NCBI GenBank assembly: GCA_017478025.1 | Contig: JAFVGZ010000021.1 | Coordinates: 1-58,476 of the forward strand | Reading direction: 5' to 3' | Origin: Prevotella sp. | Lineage (GTDB): Bacteria > Bacteroidota > Bacteroidia > Bacteroidales > Bacteroidaceae | Length of the DNA stretch: 58,476 nucleotides | Shown here: positions 26,246 to 56,605 of the stretch, piece after piece | Layout: the number at the start of each line of letters is the position of its first letter | How positions within the stretch are numbered: the stretch's first letter is position 1 | Position numbers and translations under genes: made by a program | The notes under the pieces: model-generated | Databases searched by the model: none | Told to the model about the DNA's origin: nothing | Seen by the model: only the letters and a program-made list of their open reading frames with translations

Positions 26246-26848
26246 TTATTCTAATCCCATCACGCCTTTGAGACCCTGATCTACGCCAGAGAATCCCATG
26301 AAGGCGAGCGACAGAAGCGCTGCTGTGATGAGGGTGATTGATACGCCTTTCAGTCCCTTTGGCACGTTGGCGAACTCCAGCTGCTCTCTCAGTCCTGCGA
26401 AGAGGATGAGCGCCAGTCCGAAGCCAAGCGCGGATGCTATGGCATAGTCGAGTGACATGAGCAGGCTATAGTCCTTCTGGATGACGCTGATGGCCACACC
26501 GAGCACTGCACAGTTGGTGGTGATCAGTGGAAGGAATACGCCGAGTGCCTGATAGAGTGGGGGAGATACTTTCTTGAGTATTATCTCTACCATCTGTACG
26601 AGGGCTGCTATGACGAGGATGAATGCCAGCGTCTGGAGGAAGCCCAGGCCGAGGGGATTGAGTACAAACATCTGGATGAGCCAGGTTACGAGTGTTGCCA
26701 GCAGCATGACGAAGGCTACGGCGGCAGACATACCGAGTGAGGTGTTCACCTTTTGGCTGACGCCGAGGAACGGACAGATGCCGAGGAACTGGCTCAGTAC
26801 GATATTGTTAACGAATATCGCTGCGATAAAAATCAATAGATATTCCAT
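26246..26848 (-). CDS. rnfA: Rnf electron transport complex subunit A
   Basis: This integral membrane subunit (200 aa) of the ferredoxin:NAD+ oxidoreductase has six helices. Typical blocks are FVNNIVLSQFLGICPFLGVS (with the Cys that contributes to the membrane [2Fe-2S] site shared by RnfA and RnfE), FLPLITTNCAVLGVAI (second Cys), and FGLALILFAGLREQLE. It is the last gene of rseC-rnfBCDGEA, 5 bp after rnfE. Confidence 0.97.
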   Translation of the reverse strand: MEYLLIFIAAIFVNNIVLSQFLGICPFLGVSQKVNTSLGMSAAVAFVMLLATLVTWLIQMFVLNPLGLGFLQTLAFILVIAALVQMVEIILKKVSPPLYQALGVFLPLITTNCAVLGVAISVIQKDYSLLMSLDYAIASALGFGLALILFAGLREQLEFANVPKGLKGVSITLITAALLSLAFMGFSGVDQGLKGVMGLE

Positions 26849-26853
26849 AGACG

Positions 26854-27438
26854 TTATGCTTTCTTGAATCGGTTAATAACTGCAATGATGTATCCCAGTG
26901 TGAGGAATGCTCCCGGAGGAAGAATGAAGAGCAGCATGCCGTATTCTTCGGGGATGAGTCTCATCTCGAAGATGGTGCCGTTGCCCAGCAGCTCGCGGAA
27001 GATGCCGAGGATGGTGAGGCCGATGGTGAAGCCCAGTCCGATGCCCAGTCCGTCGAAGGCAGAGTCCAGCGGAGTGTTCTTGCCTGCATAGCTCTCTGCG
27101 CGTCCAAGGATGATACAGTTCACCACGATAAGCGGGATGAAGAGTCCGAGTGACTTATCTACCTCAGGCATATAAGCCTTGAGTCCCATCTGTACGAGTG
27201 TCACCAGCGTTGCTATGACCACGATATAGACAGGGATATGCACCATGTCAGGCGTCAGGTTCTTGATGCACGAGATGATGATGTTAGAGAAGATGAGCAC
27301 TACCATAGTGGCGAGTCCCATCATCAGGCCGTTGGTGGCACTGGTGGTAGTGGCCAGCGTAGGACACATACCGAGCATCAGGACGAACGTTGGGTTCTCC
27401 TTTACGATGCCATTGAGAATGATATCAAGCTTACTCAT
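26854..27438 (-). CDS. rnfE: Rnf electron transport complex subunit E
   Basis: The protein has 194 aa from ATG 27436-27438 (MSKLDIILNGIVKENPTFVLMLGMCPTLATTTSA). A 44-residue upstream extension to 27570 lies inside rnfG and is not used. It is a membrane protein paralogous to RnfA in inverted topology, with the Cys-containing GMCPTLA and PLIVVNCIILGRAE motifs. It overlaps the rnfG 3' end by 8 bp, indicating coupled translation. Confidence 0.96.
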   Translation of the reverse strand: MSKLDIILNGIVKENPTFVLMLGMCPTLATTTSATNGLMMGLATMVVLIFSNIIISCIKNLTPDMVHIPVYIVVIATLVTLVQMGLKAYMPEVDKSLGLFIPLIVVNCIILGRAESYAGKNTPLDSAFDGLGIGLGFTIGLTILGIFRELLGNGTIFEMRLIPEEYGMLLFILPPGAFLTLGYIIAVINRFKKA

Positions 27439-28060
27439 TTGTTGCCTCCTTTCCTTCTTGGGTTGTAGCTCCTGTGCAGCTGTCAGCGCCTGACTCCTTA
27501 AAGGTGTTGTAGGCCTGCTGTACGGCACGCAGGAATGCGCGTGATGTGATAGTAGAAGCGGTGATGGCATCTACGTCGCCGCCATCCTGCTTCACCTTCA
27601 GCTCATTGGCTCCGGGGTTCTTGCTGATGATGTTGCCCGGTGCTCCCTGCTGGAACCAGTCGGGGCACTTGGCACCCAGACCAGGTGTCTCATTGTTCTC
27701 CAGAACGGTGTAGCCCAGGATGTCGCCTGCCTGATTGAAGCCGACGAGAACGGTCAGATTGCCACCGAAGCCCTTAGGGTCGGTAGATTTTACAGCTATT
27801 CCCTTGTCTGTATTGTATATGGTGTAAGTGAGTTCCTTGCCGTCAACGGTACGTTTTACCTCTTTGCCGTCAGGATTCTCCACTTTCACATCACCACCGC
27901 CCATGACGGCAGTGATACCGTCAGCCAGTGTCTTGGCATTTGTTGCCTCAATAGGGCCTTTGGTCACCTCGTTGGCTCCGGCCAGCAGACCACCGCAGAT
28001 TACTGCGATGCCGGTGAGGACACAGACCATGTTGGTGAGATTTGATTTCAGTTTTTCCAT
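27431..28060 (-). CDS. rnfG: Rnf electron transport complex subunit G
   Basis: The protein has 209 aa: one N-terminal membrane helix (MVCVLTGIAVICGGLLAG) and a periplasmic FMN-binding domain. The covalent flavinylation site is in DAITASTITSRAF, where a Thr is expected to carry FMN; the preceding ETPGLGAK motif is conserved. The C-terminal 25 residues (GADSCTGATTQEGKEATNE) are a polar tail. It is 17 bp after rnfD. Confidence 0.95.
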   Translation of the reverse strand: MEKLKSNLTNMVCVLTGIAVICGGLLAGANEVTKGPIEATNAKTLADGITAVMGGGDVKVENPDGKEVKRTVDGKELTYTIYNTDKGIAVKSTDPKGFGGNLTVLVGFNQAGDILGYTVLENNETPGLGAKCPDWFQQGAPGNIISKNPGANELKVKQDGGDVDAITASTITSRAFLRAVQQAYNTFKESGADSCTGATTQEGKEATNE

Positions 28061-28077
28061 TTTCTGTCCTCCTTCCT

Positions 28078-29073
28078 TTATTTAGCTGCCGGCACTTCGC
28101 CGAAGCGGGTTGGTTTGATATACATATTTATAAGAGGTGTAAACGCATTCATGATGAGAATGGCGAATGACATACCCTCTGGGTAAGCACCCCAGTTACG
28201 GATGATGATTGTCAGCAGACCTATGGCGACACCGTAGATGAGCTGTCCCTTGTGGGTCATTGGCGATGTGACATAGTCTGTAGCCATGAAGATGGCACCC
28301 AGCATGAGACCGCCGGCAAAGATTACCTGGAACGGATTAGCGTAGGTCTGGCAGTCAACAAGCCACAGGAGGCCTGAGAATACGAATACGGTGCCGATGA
28401 TGGATACCGGTATGTGCCATGTTATGATCTTGCGCCAGAGCATGAAGCAGAGTCCCAGGATGAGCGCAATAGCGCAGACCTCACCGATGGCACCCACGCC
28501 GTCGGGATGGTTGCCGAGGAACATATCCCATGCAGAGGGAAGCTGATTAAGAACGTCTGTCTCGCCCTTTATGGCGCGCTTCATCAGCGAGAGCGGTGTA
28601 GCACCTGTCTCTGCGTCTGTGTAGCTGGCCCACTGTGCAGCCTTAGGCCATGATGTCATGGCTGTAGGGAAGCTGACGAGGAGGAAGCAACGGCCTACGA
28701 GAGCGGGGTTGAAGGGATTGTGGCCCAGACCGCCGAAGCTCATCTTGCCTACGCCGATAGCCACCAACGCACCAACGATAATCATCCACAGAGGGAAGTT
28801 GGAAGGCAAGTTCATACCGAGGAGCAGACCCGTCAGGATGGCAGAGCCGTCAAGGAGTGTCGGGGTTCTCTTCAAAAAACACTTGCAGATAGCCCACTCA
28901 AAGAATACGCAGGCTGCCACACTCACCAGACATACTATCGCAGAGCCGAGTCCGAAGAAGTAGAATGATGCGAGCAACGCTGGAAGGAGTGCCACGATAA
29001 CACCATACATATTCTTCTGCACCGAGTCATTGGAATGTGCGTGAGGTGAGAGAGAAACTATTAAGTTACCCAT
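28078..29073 (-). CDS. rnfD: Rnf electron transport complex subunit D
   Basis: This membrane subunit (331 aa) has about nine helices. The N-terminal SPHAHSNDSVQKNMYGVIVALLPAL and GKMSFGGLGHNPFNPALVGRCFL blocks are diagnostic. The flavin attachment region is ETGATPLSLM, where the Thr is the expected covalent FMN site. It couples electron flow from RnfG/RnfB to ion transport. Confidence 0.96.
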   Translation of the reverse strand: MGNLIVSLSPHAHSNDSVQKNMYGVIVALLPALLASFYFFGLGSAIVCLVSVAACVFFEWAICKCFLKRTPTLLDGSAILTGLLLGMNLPSNFPLWMIIVGALVAIGVGKMSFGGLGHNPFNPALVGRCFLLVSFPTAMTSWPKAAQWASYTDAETGATPLSLMKRAIKGETDVLNQLPSAWDMFLGNHPDGVGAIGEVCAIALILGLCFMLWRKIITWHIPVSIIGTVFVFSGLLWLVDCQTYANPFQVIFAGGLMLGAIFMATDYVTSPMTHKGQLIYGVAIGLLTIIIRNWGAYPEGMSFAILIMNAFTPLINMYIKPTRFGEVPAAK

Positions 29074-29079
29074 ATTTCT

Positions 29080-29150
29080 AATTAACGAATTAACGAATTA
29101 ACGAATTGTGCATTATAAATTATGAATTATGCATTTTGAATTATGCATTA
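29080..29150. repeat. GAATTAAC and ATTATGAATT word array between rnfC and rnfD
   Basis: Three and a half copies of AATTAACG are followed by TGCATTAT/ATTATGAATTATGCATT words. The array is intra-operonic, and the rnfC stop codon sits at its edge. Confidence 0.7.
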
Positions 29151-30710
29151 TTACGCGCTTGGCCAGTTCTTTGGCATCACGGCTGGCTTCAGTCCCCTTG
29201 GCATTGCTGGAACAGGGTTCTTCTTCGGTCCGGAGAAGTCAACGTCTGTAGGTGTGACGAACGGTTTCGGTGCCGTGTTCATCACCACTGCCTTCTTGTC
29301 TGCTGCGCCCTTGGCCGGTGCATCGCCTGCCGGAGCCGGTTTTGCCGGAGCTGCTGCCGGTGCCGGAGCTGTGCGGCTGCGTATGATGCCCATAACGGTC
29401 TGCTTGCCCTTACGGATATCAACAAGCAGCTGACGGTACGCAGGACAGGTGAACTGGCAAGAGCCGCACTCGATGCAAGAGGTAATCATCTCTGCCTCCA
29501 GCATGTCCCACTTCTCCATTGTGGCGCCTTTGGCCAGGAGATATGGTGACAGTCCCATTGGGCAGGCGCTGACACACTTGGCGCAGCGTATGCATGGCTG
29601 GGGCTCCTTGGCAAGGGCGTCATCCCCTGAAAGGACGGTGATAGAGTTCTGTCCCTTGCCTACGGGCACTGTGATAGCAGGCACAGCGCGTCCCATCATA
29701 GGACCGCCTGCGAGCACCTTGCAGTCACCGCTTGGCATGCCGCCACAGAGGTTGATGAGCTCCTCAAAGGATGTACCCATGCGAACGAGGAAGTTGCTCG
29801 GAGTCTTTATCTCCTTACCCGTCACTGTGGTGTAGCGCTCAAAGAGAGGCTTCTTCTTCATCACTGCCTCATAGACAGCTACGGCGGTACCTGCGTTCTG
29901 TACTACGGCACCCACGTTGATAGGTATGGCAGGAGGTGCAGGCACCTGACGGCGAATGACAGCGTCAATGAGCTGCTTCTCACCGCCCTGTGGATACTTC
30001 TTCTCAAGTGGTACGACCTCTATCTGTGGGTCGTTCTCCACTTTCTCTGCCAGCAGTTTGATAGCTGCGGGTTTGTTGTCCTCGATACCGATATATCCCT
30101 TCTTTACCTTAACGGCAGCCATGAGTATGCGCAGACCCTCTATCAGCTGGTCTGCCTTCTCCAGCATCAGACGATAGTCAGATGTGATATATGGCTCACA
30201 CTCCACGCCGTTGATGATAACGCACTCTGCCACAGCACCTGGAGGAGGTGACAGCTTGACGTGTGTGGGGAAACATGCTCCGCCCATACCGACAACGCCG
30301 GCATACTTCACGCGAGCTACGATTTCCTCAGGAGTCAGTTCGGGATGATCTTTCAGGCGCTCCAGCTTGTCGGAACGGTCTATGGAGGGCTCCCACTCGT
30401 CACCTTCTACCTTGACGGTGATAGCAGGCTTCATCACTCCAGCCACATCCAGGCTGTCGCCGACCTTTGTTACTGTACCTGAAACGGAAGAGAAGATATT
30501 TGCTGATACGAAACCTCCAGCCTCGGCAATCATCGTACCTACCTTAACCTTGTCGCCTTCCTTGACGATAGGTTTGGCAGGAGCGCCGATGTGCTGGCTG
30601 AGAGAAAACACTGCCACCTTGGGTAACGGGGCGGGCTGTGTCGCTGCGTCGTTGCTGAGTTTGTTTTCCTCAGGATGAACGCCACCAATTCTGAATGTTC
30701 TTACTTTCAT
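29151..30710 (-). CDS. rnfC: Rnf electron transport complex subunit C with extra C-terminal tail
   Basis: The protein has 519 aa. This peripheral subunit oxidises or reduces NAD(H) through FMN and two [4Fe-4S] clusters. It opens with the RnfC start FRIGGVHPEENK, has an NAD/FMN region (GVVGMGGACFPTHVKLSPP, with IINGVECEPYITSDYRLM), and the cluster motifs CIRCAKCVSACP and CIECGSCQFTCP (about residues 375-430). After the usual end near VMGIIRSR it continues through an Ala/Pro linker (about residues 445-480) into a tail PKPFVTPTDVDFSGPKKNP... that is 27/37 identical to the end of RnfB. RnfB precedes it by 16 bp. Confidence 0.95.
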   Translation of the reverse strand: MKVRTFRIGGVHPEENKLSNDAATQPAPLPKVAVFSLSQHIGAPAKPIVKEGDKVKVGTMIAEAGGFVSANIFSSVSGTVTKVGDSLDVAGVMKPAITVKVEGDEWEPSIDRSDKLERLKDHPELTPEEIVARVKYAGVVGMGGACFPTHVKLSPPPGAVAECVIINGVECEPYITSDYRLMLEKADQLIEGLRILMAAVKVKKGYIGIEDNKPAAIKLLAEKVENDPQIEVVPLEKKYPQGGEKQLIDAVIRRQVPAPPAIPINVGAVVQNAGTAVAVYEAVMKKKPLFERYTTVTGKEIKTPSNFLVRMGTSFEELINLCGGMPSGDCKVLAGGPMMGRAVPAITVPVGKGQNSITVLSGDDALAKEPQPCIRCAKCVSACPMGLSPYLLAKGATMEKWDMLEAEMITSCIECGSCQFTCPAYRQLLVDIRKGKQTVMGIIRSRTAPAPAAAPAKPAPAGDAPAKGAADKKAVVMNTAPKPFVTPTDVDFSGPKKNPVPAMPRGLKPAVMPKNWPSA

Positions 30711-30726
30711 GTCTTTTTGTCAGAGG

Positions 30727-31239
30727 TTAGAGGTTAACACCTGGCCAATTCTGTGGCAGAACAGCAGGCTTTAGTCCACTTGGAATTGTTGGTACTGGGT
30801 TCTGCTTCGGACCAGAGAAGTCCAGTCCTTCTGGAACCACGAAAGGCTTTGGATCAGTTGACATTGGCTTCAGAGGTCCTGCGGGCTTCTTAGGTCCTGC
30901 AGCCTTGCTGTCCTTGGCATCAGCAGATGCGGCAGGAGCAGCCTCGCCGCCACCTGAGAGAATGGCAGCAACTTGATCCATCACCTCTGCTCCGCCTACA
31001 GGACACAGCAAACCGTCAATGTTTCCTTTCTCCATAGCAGCCTTGAAACACGCCGCAGCAAAGCCCGAGCATCCAGGGAAACCGCAGCCGCCACAGTTGG
31101 CCTGAGGCAGTATGGCAGCGACCTGGCCCAGACGGGGGTCTTCGTCCACAGCAAATTTCTTGGCACAGATGTAAAGTATCACTGCAGCAATTAAGGCAAT
31201 GATACCAAGCGTCAACACTGATGATAAGATTAGGTTCAT
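30727..31239 (-). CDS. rnfB: Short RnfB lacking the ferredoxin domain
   Basis: The protein has 170 aa, against about 270-330 aa in typical Bacteroidetes RnfB. It keeps the membrane anchor (LTLGIIALIAAVILYICA) and the first [4Fe-4S] module, NCGGCGFPGCSGFAAAC with the fourth Cys in LLCPVGG. The usual C-terminal domain with two [4Fe-4S] clusters (two CxxCxxCxxxCP motifs), which passes electrons to RnfC/RnfD, is absent. In its place come an Ala/Pro/Lys linker (about residues 97-128) and a tail PKPFVVPEGLDFSGPKQNP... ending QNWPGVNL. The stop is real: rnfC begins 16 bp later and no frame in between encodes cysteine motifs. The same tail ends RnfC. Confidence 0.92.
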   Translation of the reverse strand: MNLILSSVLTLGIIALIAAVILYICAKKFAVDEDPRLGQVAAILPQANCGGCGFPGCSGFAAACFKAAMEKGNIDGLLCPVGGAEVMDQVAAILSGGGEAAPAASADAKDSKAAGPKKPAGPLKPMSTDPKPFVVPEGLDFSGPKQNPVPTIPSGLKPAVLPQNWPGVNL

Positions 31240-31320: not shown

Positions 31321-31740
31321 CTATGTCTCACTTACAACTCTGAACGACAGCATCTCCGTGAGCTGAGCCTTGCACGCGTACATTATTAAATAATACACGG
31401 CAAGCACCGCCACAGCTGCAACGCATGCCAGCAACTCACCCATTCCGAGCCGTATGCCCGCCACGATAGTGGCCAAAAGCAATACCGAGGGAATAGCGAA
31501 CGCCAGCAGGACTGCCTTGAGTCCGATGGAGGTGGAGCCGACCACGGTGACCGGTTGTCCTATAGTAAAACTGTCTGCCGTCAGGCAAGGGACATCGATG
31601 ATTTTCTCCTTGCGTTCAGATGACGCGCAGTAGGTCGATACCTTGCACGCGGAACATGCACTGCTCTGCACAATGCGAACGTGGAGCATTGCCTTCGAAA
31701 TGCTCTCTACTACACCGTCATGGGATATCTGGTCATTCAT
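31321..31740 (-). CDS. rseC: RseC/RsxC-associated SoxR-reducing system protein
   Basis: The protein has 139 aa: an N-terminal beta-rich cysteine domain (HDGVVESISKAMLHVRIVQSSACSACKVSTYC, three Cys) and two membrane helices (AVLLAFAIPSVLLLATIVAG and LACVAAVAVLAVYYLIMY). RseC homologues commonly precede or lie within rnf operons and are thought to help mature or interact with the complex. It has a promoter directly upstream, with a leader of only a few nucleotides. Confidence 0.9.
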   Translation of the reverse strand: MNDQISHDGVVESISKAMLHVRIVQSSACSACKVSTYCASSERKEKIIDVPCLTADSFTIGQPVTVVGSTSIGLKAVLLAFAIPSVLLLATIVAGIRLGMGELLACVAAVAVLAVYYLIMYACKAQLTEMLSFRVVSET

Positions 31741-42611: not shown

Positions 42612-43418
42612 TTATATTTTCTTCATTAAATAAAAGTGGTTCACCGGTCCGTGACCGTGGCCGATTCTTTCTTTTGCGCCGCTGATGATGGCGTTGTTGA
42701 CGTAGTCTTTGGCTCCCTTGACGGCATCTGGCAGGGTAAGGCCTTTCGCCAGGAACGATGCTATGGCTGATGACATAGTGCAGCCAGTGCCGTGGGTGTT
42801 TGGGGTGTCAACGCGAATGGCAGGCAGTTCGTAGTACTGACAATCCTCTGAGCAGTAGAGGATATCAACGAGAGTGTCTGCCTCTATGTGGCCTGCCTTC
42901 AGGAGCACGGAGACACCGAAGCGTTGCGACAGCTCTTTGGCGGCCTGGGGCAGCTGTGAGCCGTCTGTAATGTGGCAGCCCCCGAGGAGCACTTCGGCTT
43001 CGGGTACGTTGGGTGTGATGACGCGTGCCATGGGTATGAGGTCGCTGATGAGCGTCGTGACAGCCTCGTTCTGAAACAGCGTGTGGCCGGAGGTTGAGAC
43101 CATGACGGGGTCAAGAACCACCGATGCAGGTCCGTGTTTCTGAAGTTGTCGCGCTACTGCTCTGACGATGTCGGCAGAGAAGAGCATGCCTATCTTCACG
43201 GCATCGGCTCCGATGTCACTCAGCACAGCGTCGATCTGTGCCTCCACGATGTCGGTAGGTACAACGTGTACGCCGCTCACACCGAGAGTATTCTGCACCG
43301 TGACAGCCGTGATAGCCGACGATGCGTAGCAACCAAGGGCAGAGATGGTCTTGATGTCGGCCTGAATGCCGGCACCACCACCAGAATCGCTACCTGCTAT
43401 AGTAAGAACTTTTTTCAT
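42612..43418 (-). CDS. thiD: Hydroxymethylpyrimidine/phosphomethylpyrimidine kinase
   Basis: The kinase (268 aa from ATG 43416-43418; an 11-residue upstream extension reads into a repeat and is rejected) phosphorylates HMP and HMP-P. The ribokinase fold is visible: TIAGSDSGGGAGIQADIKT, VLDPVMVSTSGH, VITPNVPEAEVLLG and DTPNTHGTGCTMSSAIAS with the anion hole and catalytic Asp/Cys region. It is the last gene of the thi operon. Confidence 0.96.
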   Translation of the reverse strand: MKKVLTIAGSDSGGGAGIQADIKTISALGCYASSAITAVTVQNTLGVSGVHVVPTDIVEAQIDAVLSDIGADAVKIGMLFSADIVRAVARQLQKHGPASVVLDPVMVSTSGHTLFQNEAVTTLISDLIPMARVITPNVPEAEVLLGGCHITDGSQLPQAAKELSQRFGVSVLLKAGHIEADTLVDILYCSEDCQYYELPAIRVDTPNTHGTGCTMSSAIASFLAKGLTLPDAVKGAKDYVNNAIISGAKERIGHGHGPVNHFYLMKKI

Positions 43419-43427
43419 AAATAAGAG

Positions 43428-43490
43428 CCCCCTCTCTGCCCTGGGGGGCATCCTAGAGCCCCACCCCGGCCCTCCCCTGGGGGAGGGGAG
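43428..43490. repeat. Two GC-rich REP-like elements between thiE2 and thiD
   Basis: GCCCCCTCTCTGCCCTGGGG followed by GGCAT, then AGCCCCACCCCGGCCCTCCC followed by CTGGGGGAGGGG. Both halves form hairpins. Confidence 0.8.
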
Positions 43491-43495
43491 GAAAA

Positions 43496-43584
43496 TTACA
43501 GGTTATGTAAATTGAATAATCCAACTGTCCCATATATCACTCCCTCCCCCAGGGGAGGGCTGGGGTGGGGCTGTGGGTCAGGCT
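43496..43584. repeat. 89-bp composite intergenic repeat, copy 1
   Basis: It starts TTACAGGTTATGTAAATTGA and ends in the GC-rich CCCTCCCCCAGGGGAGGG...GGGGTGGGGC element plus TGTGGGTCAGGCT. It matches 47158-47246 at 84 of 89 positions with no gaps. It contains the stop codon of thiE2. Confidence 0.9.
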
Positions 43585-44129
43585 TTGGACTGTGGCCTCC
43601 ACGCATCGCCTAGGATCATGGCACCGCCGAAGCCGAGGGCCTTTACCTCTTCGAGGCGGCTGAAGGTGACACCGCCTAGGGCATATACCTTATTATCTAT
43701 TGTGCCGTCTTGTGTTGCCTGTATCAGCTCTTCGTGTGTGAAGGCTGCACGGTAACCCTGTTTGGAGATGCTATCGTAGATGGGTGACAGTGACACATAT
43801 TGGCAGCGGGATTTCCATTGCCTCACTTCATCGAGACTGTGGCAGCTGCGGCTGACGGAGCCGCTCCACCCTTGAGGCGGCATAGGATTGCGCGCGTTCA
43901 GGTGTACGCCATACAGACCGTAGTGCGCAGCCAGAGAGAAGTGGTCATGAAGCACCAGACGGCTGTGCAGATCTGACGGTATGCTGCGGATAAGCTGCTC
44001 CATCTCTTCGGGGCTGCATCCCGGCTTTCGCAGGTGCACAAGGTCTGCGCGCCCACTGCGGAGCATCTCGGCAATCGTCGCCGCTTCTCCCTCATGAAAC
44101 GTGGGCAAGGTGATAACAACTGTTTTCAT
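43578..44129 (-). CDS. Second thiamine phosphate synthase-like protein (ThiE/TenI fold)
   Basis: The protein has 183 aa from ATG 44127-44129; an extension to 44192 is encoded by a TGTACAT word array and rejected. TIM-barrel pieces are LVHLRKPGCSPEEMEQLIR, RLVLHDHFSLAAHYGLYGVHLNAR, SRSCHSLDEVRQWKSRCQYVSLSPIYDS and KVYALGGVTFSRLEEVKALGFGGAMILG, as in ThiE/TenI. It is shorter than the ThiE at 48082 and has GVHLNAR/SRSCHS in place of the usual GVHLG/S-x-H. A changed substrate or a TenI-like, non-synthase role is possible. Confidence 0.8.
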   Translation of the reverse strand: MKTVVITLPTFHEGEAATIAEMLRSGRADLVHLRKPGCSPEEMEQLIRSIPSDLHSRLVLHDHFSLAAHYGLYGVHLNARNPMPPQGWSGSVSRSCHSLDEVRQWKSRCQYVSLSPIYDSISKQGYRAAFTHEELIQATQDGTIDNKVYALGGVTFSRLEEVKALGFGGAMILGDAWRPQSKA

Positions 44130-44139
44130 TGCGTCAGCC

Positions 44140-44188
44140 AAATTGTACATTGTACATTGTACATAGTACATAGTAAATTGTACATCCA
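44140..44188. repeat. TGTACAT word array between thiH and thiE2
   Basis: TTGTACATTGTACATTGTAC is followed by ATAGTACATAGTAAATTGTACATC. It consists of self-complementary TGTACA units. Confidence 0.75.
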
Positions 44189-45328
44189 TCATGCAGTTCT
44201 AATCATCTTCAGATGGTCGAACGAGCCGTCCCAGTCCTTCCATACGGGTTCGATGCCGCGCTGCTTGAGTGCATGTGCTACCTCCTCCACGGTACGGTCG
44301 TCGCTGACGGTGAACTGCTCCAGTGCCTGCGGATAGGTATGGTAGCCTCCCGGGTTCACACGGCTGGCTGCCGACATGGTGGTGACGCCAAGGGTGCACA
44401 TGTTGTTGCGTATAAACTCCGGCTCGCGGGTAGAGTAGGAGATGTCCACATCGTGGTCAAAGATACGCATGGCGAATGTCACCTGTGCCAGTTCGCGGTC
44501 GGTGACGAAGCAGTTAGGCTGGAAACCTTCGTTCTGAGCGGGGCGCATACGTGGGAAGTTGACGCTATACTTCGTGCGCCAATAGTGCTTCTGCAGGTAG
44601 CGCAGGTGGTAGGCCATCATCGTCACGTCGGTCTTCCACTCCTTCTCCAGTCCCAGGAGCGCTCCCATTCCGATGGAGTGAACGCCGGCCATGCCCATGC
44701 GGTCAAAGCCGTTGACACGCCAATCGAACTTGGACTTCATGCCGGCAGGGTGGTAGTTCTTATAGTTCGCTTCGTTATAGGTCTCCTGAAAGCAAATCAC
44801 CCCGTTCAGGCCGTGGTGAGTCAGCATCTCATAGTCCTCTGTGGAGAGTGGCATCACCTCTATCTTGAGGTTAGAGAAGTACGGCTTAGCCCTGTCCAGA
44901 GCCTCTGCGAGATACTTCGGTCCGGCCTTGGCTGGGTTCTCGCCCGTCACGATGAGCAGGTTCTCAAACGGTCCGAGCTGCTTTATGGCCTTGTATTCAT
45001 TCTCACACTGGTCAATGGTGAGGATGGTGCGTGCCATCGGGTTCTGCCTGTGGAAGCCGCAATAGACGCAGCTATTGGAGCATGAGTTGGTGATATAGAG
45101 CGGTATGAACATAGACATTGTCTTGCCGAAGCGCTCCTGCGTATATTTCTGTGACAGACGTGCCATCGTCTCAAGGTGGGGCAGGGCGGCAGGTGATATG
45201 AGTGCCATGAAATCCTCCACGTCACAATGTTCCTTTGCCAAGGCACGTCTTACGTCAAAATCGGTCTTAGAGGCAATCTTCTGGGTTGTCTCGTCCCATG
45301 AAATTTTCTTTAATTCTTCGCTAAACAC
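44189..45328 (-). CDS. thiH: 2-iminoacetate synthase (radical SAM)
   Basis: The enzyme (379 aa) cleaves tyrosine to dehydroglycine (2-iminoacetate) for the thiazole ring. The radical SAM motif is TNSCSNSCVYCGFH (CxxxCxxC, about residues 82-93). ICFQETYNEANYKNYHP, RMGMAGVHSIGMGALLGL and the C-terminal MSAASRVNPGGY are ThiH features. It lies downstream of thiC. Confidence 0.96.
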   Translation of the reverse strand: MFSEELKKISWDETTQKIASKTDFDVRRALAKEHCDVEDFMALISPAALPHLETMARLSQKYTQERFGKTMSMFIPLYITNSCSNSCVYCGFHRQNPMARTILTIDQCENEYKAIKQLGPFENLLIVTGENPAKAGPKYLAEALDRAKPYFSNLKIEVMPLSTEDYEMLTHHGLNGVICFQETYNEANYKNYHPAGMKSKFDWRVNGFDRMGMAGVHSIGMGALLGLEKEWKTDVTMMAYHLRYLQKHYWRTKYSVNFPRMRPAQNEGFQPNCFVTDRELAQVTFAMRIFDHDVDISYSTREPEFIRNNMCTLGVTTMSAASRVNPGGYHTYPQALEQFTVSDDRTVEEVAHALKQRGIEPVWKDWDGSFDHLKMIRTA

Positions 45329-45360
45329 TTTGTTGAATTGATAATTGACAATTAGTAATT

Positions 45361-45396
45361 TCCCTCCCTCCCCTAGGGGAGGGGCGGGGTGGGGCT
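45361..45396. repeat. GC-rich REP-like element between thiC and thiH
   Basis: CCCTCCCTCCCCTAGGGGAG followed by GGGCGGGGTGGGGC, directly before the thiC stop. Confidence 0.8.
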
Positions 45397-47103
<1,707 letters not shown>

Positions 47104-47107
47104 TTAA

Positions 47108-47150
47108 GGCCCCCTCTCTGCCCGGGGGGCATCTCTCCCCCTGGGAGGAG
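47108..47150. repeat. GC-rich REP-like elements between thiG and thiC
   Basis: GGCCCCCTCTCTGCCCGGGG followed by GGCATCTCTCCCCCTGGGAGGAGAGA contains two hairpins and is related to 43428-43490. Confidence 0.75.
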
Positions 47151-47157
47151 AGAGATA

Positions 47158-47246
47158 TTACTGGTTATGTAAATTGAATCATCCAACCGTCCCATATATC
47201 ACTCCCTCCCCCAGGGGAGGGTCGGGGTGGGGCTGTGGGTCAGGCT
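47158..47246. repeat. 89-bp composite intergenic repeat, copy 2
   Basis: It is the ungapped 84/89 match to 43496-43584. It lies 12 bp downstream of the thiG stop in transcription direction, between thiG and thiC. Confidence 0.9.
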
Positions 47247-47258
47247 GTGGGTCTGTGA

Positions 47259-48029
47259 CTAGTTCAGAAATGCAGTCAGTGGACTTGATGCTTCGGCGCT
47301 GTCGCTGATGGCTCCGAGGCCTGCTTCGAATGCCTGTCGGCCTGCTATCACTGCCTGTCTGAATGCGTCTGCCATTCTCACAGGGTCACCGGCCACGGCA
47401 ATGGCTGTGTTCACGAGGCAGCAGTCCGCTCCCATCTCCATCGCTTCGGCGGCGTGGCTGGGCGCTCCGATGCCTGCATCTACCACTACTGGCACTGATG
47501 CCTGCTCGATGATAATCTGCAGGAAGTCCTTCATCCTCAGTCCTTTGTTGGTGCCGATGGGTGCTGCCAAAGGCATCACCGTTGCTGCACCGGCCTCCTC
47601 CAAGTGCTTGCACAGCGTAGGGTCGGCCTGACAGTAAGGCAGAACGACAAATCCCATCTTCACCAGCTGCTCCGTAGCCTTCAGCGTCTCCACAGAGTCA
47701 GGCAGCAGATAGCGTGGGTCGGGGTGTATCTCCAGCTTCAGCCAGTTTGTGCCGAATGCTTCGCGGGACATCTGAGCAGCGAAAACGGCTTCCTCGGCAT
47801 TGCGTACGCCCGACGTGTTGGGCAGCAACTGTATGTTACTGTTCTCTGTGATGTGGCTCAGCAGGTCATCATGCTCGTCCTCCAGCTCCACTCTCTTCAT
47901 GGCAACCGTCACCATCTCGGTGCCTGAGGCTTTGATGGCCTGCGACATCACTTCGTTGTTCATAAACTTTCCTGTTCCCAGGAAGAGACGCGAATTGAAC
48001 TCACGTCCTGCTATGATAAGTTTCTTCAT
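47259..48029 (-). CDS. thiG: Thiazole synthase
   Basis: The synthase (256 aa) builds the thiazole phosphate from deoxyxylulose 5-phosphate, dehydroglycine and ThiS thiocarboxylate. Landmarks are the start [36 protein letters not shown] (region of the Schiff-base Lys in relatives), [62 protein letters not shown]. Length is normal. Confidence 0.96.
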
Positions 48030-48061
48030 GTTTTATGTTTATGCCTTATTATGGTTTGATA

Positions 48062-48097
48062 GTTCTAATTTCGTTAATTCGTTAATTTGTTAATTCG
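48062..48097. repeat. GTTAATTC word array at the thiE 3' end
   Basis: AATTTCGTTAATTCGTTAAT followed by TTGTTAATTCG. The last thiE codons (GELTN-stop) are read from this array. Confidence 0.7.
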
Positions 48098-48714
48098 CCC
48101 ATTCGCCTCATCGCCTCTGTGGGATTGTCTGCGTTCAGCACTGCACCGCTGACGGCTATGCCGCTTACGCCCGTCTGCATGATGGCGGTTACGTCCTGCT
48201 CCGTTATGCCTCCAATGGCAACGATGGGTATGTTGATACCCTCTGTGTGCATCTGCTCCACTATGCGGCGGTACCCCTCTAAGCCCAATACAGGCGAAAG
48301 CCCCTTCTTCGTAGTGGTAAAGCGGAACGGCCCGCAGCCAATGTAGTCCGCTCCGGCCTCATAGTGCGCCTTTACGTCGTCAAAGGTATTGGCCGTGCCA
48401 CCTATTATATATTGTTTTCCCAGAATCTTCCGTGCCGCCTCGATCGATATGTCGCGCTTGCCTAAGTGCACGCCGTCGGCATGTATTGCCTTCACCAAGG
48501 CCACGTCATCGTCGATGATGAACACCGCATCGTGCTCACGGCAGAGGCGCTGAGCCTCAAGAGCCAGCGCCATACTGTCATCGTCGGGACGGGGTTCACC
48601 TTTCATGCGCAGCTGCACCCAGCGGCATCCTCCCTCCAGGGCCATGCGAATGCCGTCAAGATAGCTGTGCTCCTGCGTCTGGTGCGATATGTATTGCAGC
48701 CTTACCCTCCGCAT
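48082..48714 (-). CDS. thiE: Thiamine phosphate synthase
   Basis: The enzyme (210 aa) joins HMP-PP and thiazole phosphate. Motifs are WVQLRMKGEPRPDD, FIIDDDVALVKAIHADGVHLGKRD, IIGGTANTFDDVKAHYEAGADYIGCGPFRFTTTKKG (phosphate and pyrimidine contacts) and PIVAIGGITEQDVTAIMQTGVSGIAVSGAV. The C-terminus MGELTN is encoded by a repeat array. It overlaps the thiS end by 13 bp. Confidence 0.95.
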   Translation of the reverse strand: MRRVRLQYISHQTQEHSYLDGIRMALEGGCRWVQLRMKGEPRPDDDSMALALEAQRLCREHDAVFIIDDDVALVKAIHADGVHLGKRDISIEAARKILGKQYIIGGTANTFDDVKAHYEAGADYIGCGPFRFTTTKKGLSPVLGLEGYRRIVEQMHTEGINIPIVAIGGITEQDVTAIMQTGVSGIAVSGAVLNADNPTEAMRRMGELTN

Positions 48715-55849: not shown

Positions 55850-55878
55850 TATGCATTATGCATCATGAATTATGAATT
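55850..55878. repeat. GCATTATGCAT/ATGAATT word array carrying the ThiF-like start codon
   Basis: CTATGCATTATGCATCATGA followed by ATTATGAATTG. The gene start ATG 55865 lies inside, encoding the N-terminal MNYEL. Confidence 0.7.
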
Positions 55879-56605
55879 GAATAATCGTTATTCCCGCCAC
55901 CTCATGTTGCCTGAAATAGGCGAAGAGGGACAGAAGAAAATCATGGCATCCCGCGTGCTTGTCGTGGGTGCCGGCGGGCTTGGCTCACCCGTCATGCTCT
56001 ATCTCGCCGCTGCCGGTGTGGGCACCATCGGCGTTATTGATGCCGATGTGGTAGATCTGAGCAACCTGCAGCGACAGATTATACACCATACAAAAGACCT
56101 TGGCACCCCCAAAGTAGAGAGTGCCAAGGCAAAAATTATGGCTGTTAATCCTGATGTGGCGGTGGAGACATACCATGAGTTCCTCACTCCCGCCAATGCC
56201 CTGAGCATCATCCAGGGCTATGACTTCATAGTATCCTGCACCGACAACCTCGCTGCCAAGGCGTTGGTCAGCGATACCTGTGTGGCTGCAGGCAAGGCTT
56301 TCTCACACGGCGGCATATCAGAGTGGACAGGTCAGACCTTCACTCATGTGCCGGGCACGGCAGACTATCGTGCTATCTTCGGCCCACCACCAACAGAAGA
56401 CCGTGCTCAGGCCTCTGCAGAAGCCACTGTTACCCAAGCCCCCGTGCTGGGCGTCCTCGGTGCTGTGGCAGGTATGCTTGGCACCATTCAGGCGGCAGAG
56501 ACGTTGAAATACCTCACCGGTGCAGGCCAACTGCTCACCAATCGTCTGCTCATGTTCGATGCCCTGACCATGAAGTTCGATGTCCTGACCCTCGGAATGG
56601 ATTAG
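55865..56605 (+). CDS. thiF: ThiF/MoeB-family adenylyltransferase lacking the usual cysteines
   Basis: The protein has 246 aa. The E1-like fold is clear: RYSRHLMLPEIGEEGQKKI, VLVVGAGGLGSPVMLYLAAAGVGTIGVIDAD, LSNLQRQIIHHTKDLG (adenylation and Arg finger) and YDFIVSCTDN. It should adenylate a ubiquitin-like carrier, most plausibly ThiS 7 kb away, since no other thiF lies with the thi operon. Oddity: where relatives have CYRC and a later Cys before GVLGP, this protein has DYRA and ASAEATVTQAPVLG, and it ends at FDVLTLGMD before the second CxxC. The zinc site and the catalytic Cys are thus absent. MoeB-like use cannot be excluded. Confidence 0.85.
   Translation: MNYELNNRYSRHLMLPEIGEEGQKKIMASRVLVVGAGGLGSPVMLYLAAAGVGTIGVIDADVVDLSNLQRQIIHHTKDLGTPKVESAKAKIMAVNPDVAVETYHEFLTPANALSIIQGYDFIVSCTDNLAAKALVSDTCVAAGKAFSHGGISEWTGQTFTHVPGTADYRAIFGPPPTEDRAQASAEATVTQAPVLGVLGAVAGMLGTIQAAETLKYLTGAGQLLTNRLLMFDALTMKFDVLTLGMD

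Follow-up and report, generated by a model that had tools for sequence, protein, structure and literature searches.

The stretch of deoxyribonucleic acid (DNA) analysed here, referred to as the window, comprises 58,476 nucleotides of contig JAFVGZ010000021.1 from the Prevotella sp. assembly GCA_017478025.1, and it carries an entire rnf operon, encoded on the minus strand, in which RnfB has lost its polyferredoxin domain and shares its C-terminal tail with RnfC. The gene order is rseC-rnfB-C-D-G-E-A, the six rnf genes span positions 26246–31239, and family searches returned RnfB (matched in its FdI part only), RnfC, RnfD, RnfG, RnfE and RnfA as the subunits.

A short RnfB and the tail it has in common with RnfC

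The RnfB of the window (30727–31239, minus strand, 170 amino acids) retains the membrane helix and the single-cluster domain FdI with one [4Fe-4S] site (30955..31239; Pfam FeS at residues 44–65); the names FdI to FdIII for the domains of RnfB are those used in PMC9588780. NCBIfam models of the RnfB type cover only the N-terminal part, approximately residues 1–100, the single-cluster FeS domain is the sole Pfam domain, and FdI matches RnfB chains of the PDB with E-values from 2e-13 to 2e-10. In the long RnfB proteins of relatives a further 190 residues or so contain the repeated [4Fe-4S] motifs that make up the polyferredoxin domain FdII+III, whereas this domain is lost in the window, where an Ala/Pro/Lys linker (30853..30954, residues 96–129) occupies its place and is followed by the C-terminal tail, the first copy of the common motif (30727..30852, residues 130–170 plus stop codon). 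RnfC (29151–30710, minus strand, 519 amino acids) has a core with the FMN/NAD domain and the dicluster iron-sulfur domain, that is two [4Fe-4S] sites (29382..30710), as judged from family matches (TIGR01945 with 498.6 bits at a cut-off of 245.95, Complex1_51K and Fer4). The core is followed by an Ala/Pro linker (29271..29381, approximately residues 444–480), which the tail-less RnfC proteins of relatives do not have, and by the second copy of the motif (29151..29270, residues 481–519 plus stop codon).

An earlier reading of the sequence alone had reported that RnfB and RnfC have a C-terminal tail in common, with 27 identities over 37 residues behind Ala/Pro-rich linkers, and this holds, including its coordinates and subunit names. 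RnfB residues 130–166 and RnfC residues 481–517 are identical at 27/37 positions without a gap (27/39 if the alignment is extended to the end of RnfC), and each tail is preceded by an Ala/Pro/Lys linker. Aligned without gaps under BLOSUM62, the two C-terminal regions reach a score of 174, whereas 500 shuffles that preserved the Ala/Pro-rich composition averaged 34 and never exceeded 58, so that the match is explained neither by chance nor by composition. Six tails from three genomes have 22 invariant columns. In the window's genome (2.93 Mb, 84.7% complete) only these two copies are convincing, a third match having an E-value of 0.08. Judged from its composition alone, the tail region is probably flexible. 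No PDB chain matched the tail at E-values up to 10, a plasmid search returned one record, which matches FdI only, and the literature covered, which includes few subscription journals, yielded no description of a short RnfB or of a tail common to RnfB and RnfC.

The remaining genes of the operon lie on the same strand. Family matches identify rnfD (28078..29073), rnfG (27431..28060) and rnfA (26246..26848). For rnfE (26854..27438) the internal start MSKLDIIL was picked by likeness to relatives; the longest open reading frame (ORF) begins at 27570 within rnfG, and even with the start near 27438, rnfE shares a few bases with the end of rnfG. An RseC/MucC-like gene (31321..31740) adjoins rnfB on its upstream side. 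Between rnfC and rnfD, positions 29080–29150 are occupied by AT-rich 'aattcgttaattcgtt'-like repeats, which occur again at positions 1–220 of L003 in the same genome. Elsewhere in the window, at 42612–48714 and 55865–56605, lie ORFs that, judged by their translations, are ThiD/E/C/G/H- and ThiF-like and resemble a thiamine biosynthesis cluster.

Distribution and descent of the tailed Rnf

RnfB was found in 301/398 genomes of a genus sample. Classified by the length of the reading frame, with frames of 249 amino acids or more counted as long, 12 genomes have a short RnfB, 288 a long one, and in one (G330) the gene is cut by a contig end. Nine of the 12 carry the tail of the window, called type I, and the other three (G060, G144 and G125; 98–99% complete) have a short RnfB of 159 amino acids and a long RnfC of 513 amino acids, both ending in a strongly diverged tail, called type II. 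RnfC was read in 43 operons, three further operons that gave no RnfC by pattern being left out. It carries the tail in all 15 operons with a short RnfB (12 type I, three type II) and in none of the 28 with a long RnfB, in which it stops at the usual helix. This agrees with the guess of the sequence-only reading that the tail accompanies the short RnfB. Tail-less RnfC proteins are also found in G098, which has a long RnfB, and in a group of 17 loci with another paired motif that is described below, two of which (L136 and L145) are already among the 28.

The tail is confined to these two subunits in the genomes searched. A model of the type I tail finds exactly two strong copies, on RnfB and RnfC, in each of the nine genomes, while everything else in the 398 genomes has an E-value of 0.006 or higher; the type II tail likewise gives exactly two strong matches in each of its three genomes and nothing else at a significant E-value. 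At significant E-values the tail was seen on no other protein, neither in the window's own genome, nor in the 398 genomes of the genus, nor in the three type II genomes. Beyond this sample, 84,980 species genomes were scanned with two exact peptide patterns, which are blind to diverged tails, and this revealed 11 tail loci, partly coinciding with genomes of the genus sample so that the counts are not additive. All 11 are from uncultured Prevotella or Prevotellaceae metagenome-assembled genomes, with a short RnfB (165–174 amino acids) and an RnfC of 509–528 amino acids; the record titles of five mention rumen, red deer, reticulum or abomasum, and one is a RUG isolate. In a sample of the family, RnfB was found in 206/301 genomes, and among the matches listed (to an E-value of 4.1e-35) only the window's genome has a short and tailed form, two other short frames lying at contig starts. 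The sequence-only reading had also counted absence of the tail from close relatives as evidence against it. Most relatives do lack the tail, but they carry a long RnfB, and because of this the absence is informative and no refutation.

The lost domain was not found elsewhere. No separate protein with FdII+III was detected in the nine type I genomes, which are 65–91% complete and to which this search was confined, so that a relocation of FdII+III to another gene was rejected for them: the best matches there (E 1.4e-8 or weaker) are Fer4 proteins, small ferredoxins among them, while the same query reached E-values of 2e-88 or better in eight long-RnfB genomes, one of which is the source of the query. 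This loss, together with the lack of a match to pyruvate:ferredoxin oxidoreductase (PFOR) in three of the nine type I genomes (G001, G170 and G364; 65–79% complete), could mean that the Rnf of this clade no longer works with ferredoxin, as a pump that has decayed or taken on another purpose, which we consider improbable, since FdI, RnfC and the remaining subunits have been conserved intact, with low ratios of non-synonymous to synonymous differences (pN/pS) in the cores, and since the genomes contain both a small ferredoxin (8/9 type I, 3/3 type II) and PFOR (6/9 type I, 3/3 type II). The missing PFOR of these three genomes and the missing ferredoxin of G134 are put down to incomplete assemblies.

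The two tail types have diverged so widely that a profile comparison aligns only KPFV. Local alignments that included the eight residues before KPFV gave, for type I against type II RnfC tails, a best score of 76 and a mean of 60.9 over 36 pairs (shuffle maximum 56), and for type I RnfB against type II RnfC a score of 72 (shuffle maximum 46). Because of this stretch around MSTAxKPFV, both types are taken as descendants of one ancestral tail. In a tree of Rnf, type I, type II and the long-RnfB lineages G304 and G256/G370 form one clade (100/100), within which the best tree does not unite the two tail types, although such a grouping is not rejected (p-value of the approximately unbiased test, p-AU, 0.196). 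In a tree of PFOR, a single gene, long-RnfB lineages separate the two types and uniting these is rejected (p-AU 0.0015). The type I operons adjoin a gene that we take from its sequence to be pyk, likewise those of the long-RnfB genomes G304 and G021; the operons of G256, G370 and G098 adjoin the next gene on the pyk side, and type II operons adjoin a presumably Maf-like gene. Neighbours on the pyk side are common among 12 loci of the tail clade, in which no additional rnf-linked gene common to all was found. Type I genomes differ from the long-RnfB loci L147, L149 and L246 (of G256, G370 and G098) in that the frames listed for the latter include nothing rseC-like in the interval from rnfB to the divergent side gene. 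The simplest reading of trees and neighbours is that the short tailed Rnf arose once and then moved horizontally, while two origins with an exchanged tail are compatible with them as well.

Joint divergence, selection and a proposed docking role

The two tails of a genome have diverged together over long times. Identity between type I and type II tails is 0.37–0.42, while RnfB and RnfC tails of the same genome are on average 0.76–0.84 identical, and the tails within a genome are closer to each other than to their orthologues in 35/35 pairs between type I subclades and in 36/36 pairs of type I against type II, the pairs not being independent. A permutation test over 11 genomes, which ignores relatedness, gave 0.76 within genomes against 0.68 across genomes, and 0/20,000 permutations reached the observed value. 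The tails are under purifying selection. Pooled pN/pS in type II is 0.06 for the tails, 0.05–0.08 for the cores and 0.18–0.20 for the linkers, and in type I it is 0.27–0.31 for the tails, 0.39–0.40 for the linkers and 0.13–0.16 for the cores, these latter ratios being rough as synonymous sites are near saturation. As befits a short conserved motif under selection, pooled tails lie below linkers in both types, not, however, in every near pair.

In the Rnf complexes studied so far, ferredoxin docks on FdII+III, RnfC holds FdII+III, and FdI, which is mobile, delivers the electron to RnfA/E (PMC9588780, PMC11889175 and PMC12174285, each covered in part). We think it somewhat more probable than the opposite that the tails are a two-copy docking motif, presented on flexible Ala/Pro linkers, which recruits one cytosolic partner into the former place of FdII+III. 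The lineage has deleted from RnfB the ferredoxin receiver that is held against RnfC in the studied complexes, and one tail each on RnfB and RnfC, the cytosolic subunits beside the electron entry site, would grip the partner; we infer that both tails bind the same one. In the absence of FdII+III, FdI must receive its electrons from another source. The partner would most likely be an electron donor, either a ferredoxin or a ferredoxin-carrying enzyme, that reduces FdI directly, and FdI would hand the electron to RnfA/E as usual. Internal pseudo-twofold symmetry is a property of 2[4Fe-4S] ferredoxins, and a partner with two equivalent faces, either a dimer or such a ferredoxin, would account for two like hooks. 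The docking motif for a common partner that the earlier reading had suggested fits the joint divergence and the purifying selection, but the partner itself was not found.

A number of results weigh against a docking role, and they concern the relationship of the tails to each other, their possible copying, the partner and the comparison with other genera. Between the types, the RnfB tails score 48 against each other, below the shuffle maximum of 55. Inside subclades the within-genome tails are the closer ones in just 8/21, 2/10 and 0/3 pairs, and the RnfC tail nearest to a given RnfB tail is that of the same genome in only 4/11 genomes; as orthologues are usually closer at this range, the match between RnfB and RnfC is kept over long times only. 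For two pairs of near relatives within type I, pN is higher in the RnfC tail (0.19) than in the linker (0.00 and 0.04). Furthermore, identical residues are encoded by identical codons in type II at 49/86 positions where 36 are expected, and in two single type I genomes at 21/30 against 11.5 (L075) and 16/25 against 9.5 (L080), because of which DNA copying may have helped the tails to match; copying between rnfB and rnfC is likely for type II and these single genomes. These codon counts, the adjacency of rnfB and rnfC, the low complexity of the linkers and the two near pairs would all suit a Pro-rich expansion without docking function that passed from one neighbour to the other through duplication and gene conversion. 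As an account of the tails as a whole this is nevertheless highly improbable: across type I, identical codons (155/324) hardly exceed the 142 expected from codon use, with L081 and L129 even below expectation, so that recent DNA copying is no general explanation there, and the selective constraint on the tails, which in type II matches that on the cores, the invariant columns, the strict tie to the domain loss in the operons read and the absence of the tail from other proteins of the genomes searched all argue against it.

The search for the partner is a further source of doubt, as neither the small ferredoxin nor PFOR tracks the tail. The small ferredoxin of type I genomes differs from that of many long-RnfB genomes, yet that of the window's genome is 96–98% identical to the ferredoxin of G304 and G021, which have a long RnfB, and as these share its form there is no co-change with the tails; as a co-evolving partner it found no support, a verdict that leaves direct binding aside. 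As to the missing ferredoxin that the sequence-only reading had named as a possible partner, FdII+III did not turn up as a separate protein in the nine type I genomes searched. For PFOR, five genomes with a short RnfB could be told from four with a long one at 11 alignment columns, of which six lie in a single stretch, but another split of equal size gave 12 columns and G098, with a long RnfB and a tail-less RnfC, has the same stretch, and PFOR was rejected. The PFOR gene lies in two or more frames in G008:C24, G028:C4 and G181:C29 and C45, by assembly error or real split. With no pointer to a donor among these proteins, the tails might instead recruit a helper such as an assembly or iron-sulfur insertion factor, a regulator or a protease adaptor, and a long C-terminal helix of RnfC in A. 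vinelandii does contact RnfB and RnfH according to a review (PMC12174285, covered in part). We regard this as distinctly unlikely, since a general helper would not predict that the tails, in the operons read, strictly accompany the loss of the electron-receiving domain.

Paired motifs also occur at the flexible RnfB C-terminus in other genera. Within a chosen set of 109 distinct long RnfB proteins, which was enriched for long frames and therefore gives no frequency, 17 carry a DAPLLPSQQxLL-like motif twice behind FdII+III; these loci (L136, L145, L254–L264 and L266–L269) belong to several other genera of the family. The number of copies is exactly two in 17/17 loci, 15 of which were chosen for long frames, and RnfC is tail-less. 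One further match of the pattern lies in an unrelated frame of a PFOR locus. In L265, of another genus, LMPVCQQxLL occurs twice at the C-terminus of RnfB, and in L272 and L311, of the window's genus, KKTVxSxVxMSxMED does so. Most other long RnfB proteins compared have no such pair or only low-complexity repeats rich in Ala, Pro, Lys and Glu. A pair of motifs per Rnf complex, recurring with different sequences, may thus be a wider rule, and as other genera pair motifs on an RnfB that bears FdII+III, the tail pair by itself is no substitute for this domain, which is a further point against the role proposed above.

The same loci bear on the idea that the tails bind Rnf itself, be it tail to tail or in similar pockets of RnfC, RnfD or RnfA/E, and thereby hold the loose FdI arm near RnfC, the former job of the contact between FdII+III and RnfC. 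Pairing of tail with tail would account for the joint divergence, and there are precedents in the parts of the structural papers covered: FdII+III is kept in place by RnfC in C. tetanomorphum (PMC9588780), and a short C-terminal helix of RnfC mediates the contact to RnfB in A. woodii (PMC11889175). However, the other genera have both motif copies on an RnfB with FdII+III, where no such hold is needed, and RnfA, RnfD and RnfE, compared by length, are no longer or shorter than usual in the tail clade. An AlphaFold2 model of RnfC with tail, built from 11 sequences, had a mean predicted local distance difference test score (pLDDT) of 38, which is uninformative on either reading, and was discarded. 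Altogether we consider an internal hold unlikely. For the docking of an outside partner, a fuller version, an Rnf whose ferredoxin module is detachable, can be put forward tentatively, at odds clearly below even: that RnfB exchanged its built-in ferredoxin receiver for a bivalent docking device, which keeps an external redox protein at the junction of RnfB and RnfC and co-evolves with it, and that paired lineage-specific motifs would be a general and undescribed feature of Rnf in several genera of the family.

Relation to studied complexes and to rumen fermentation

Compared with the canonical Rnf complexes of known structure (PDB 7zc6 from C. tetanomorphum, and 9eri and 8ahx, which we take to be those of A. 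woodii and A. vinelandii), the window has the same six subunits, the same operon and the same FdI domain, but its RnfB ends after FdI and both RnfB and RnfC carry linker and tail. The long RnfB proteins of other Prevotella have the same FdI and operon order and differ in their length, in the genomes compared for it, of 280–330 amino acids including FdII+III (one of 241 amino acids ends at a contig end), and the tail-less RnfC proteins beside them have 443–458 amino acids (391 for two read from a later Met).

Known extensions resemble the tails in part. The RnfB of A. woodii ends in a Lys/Arg-rich C-terminal 'fishing hook', likewise a flexible basic end and a proposed catcher of ferredoxin, but it is found on one subunit and atop a full polyferredoxin domain, and the part of PMC11889175 covered gives no sequence-specific motif for it. 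The C-terminal helix of RnfC in A. vinelandii is likewise an extension of this subunit, but it is a helix, is not Pro-rich and, as far as the part of PMC12174285 covered goes, is not known to be common with RnfB. NqrF of Nqr likewise has a tethered single-cluster shuttle domain that feeds an RnfA/E-like pair, but it has its own FAD/NADH module (PMC12174285, in part), whereas the short RnfB is without a donor module.

In the parts of PMC11889175 and PMC9588780 covered, electrons from ferredoxin are taken to enter through FdII+III of RnfB. A conserved natural lineage that is devoid of this domain and carries matched tails on the two cytosolic subunits offers a route to other feeders of Rnf, to a possible larger assembly of Rnf with its donor and to the way in which the mobile FdI is reduced. 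A laboratory strain of B. theta that lacks rnfBCDGEA has been made, and an Rnf-selective medium has been used with it (PMC12718326). Ferredoxin:NAD+ activity has been reported in membranes of P. brevis and P. ruminicola, and Rnf balances redox cofactors in the formation of propionate and succinate by rumen Prevotella (PMC10542786, covered in part). Because of this role of Rnf in the redox balance of rumen Prevotella, the question of what the tails do bears on a main fermentation of the rumen.

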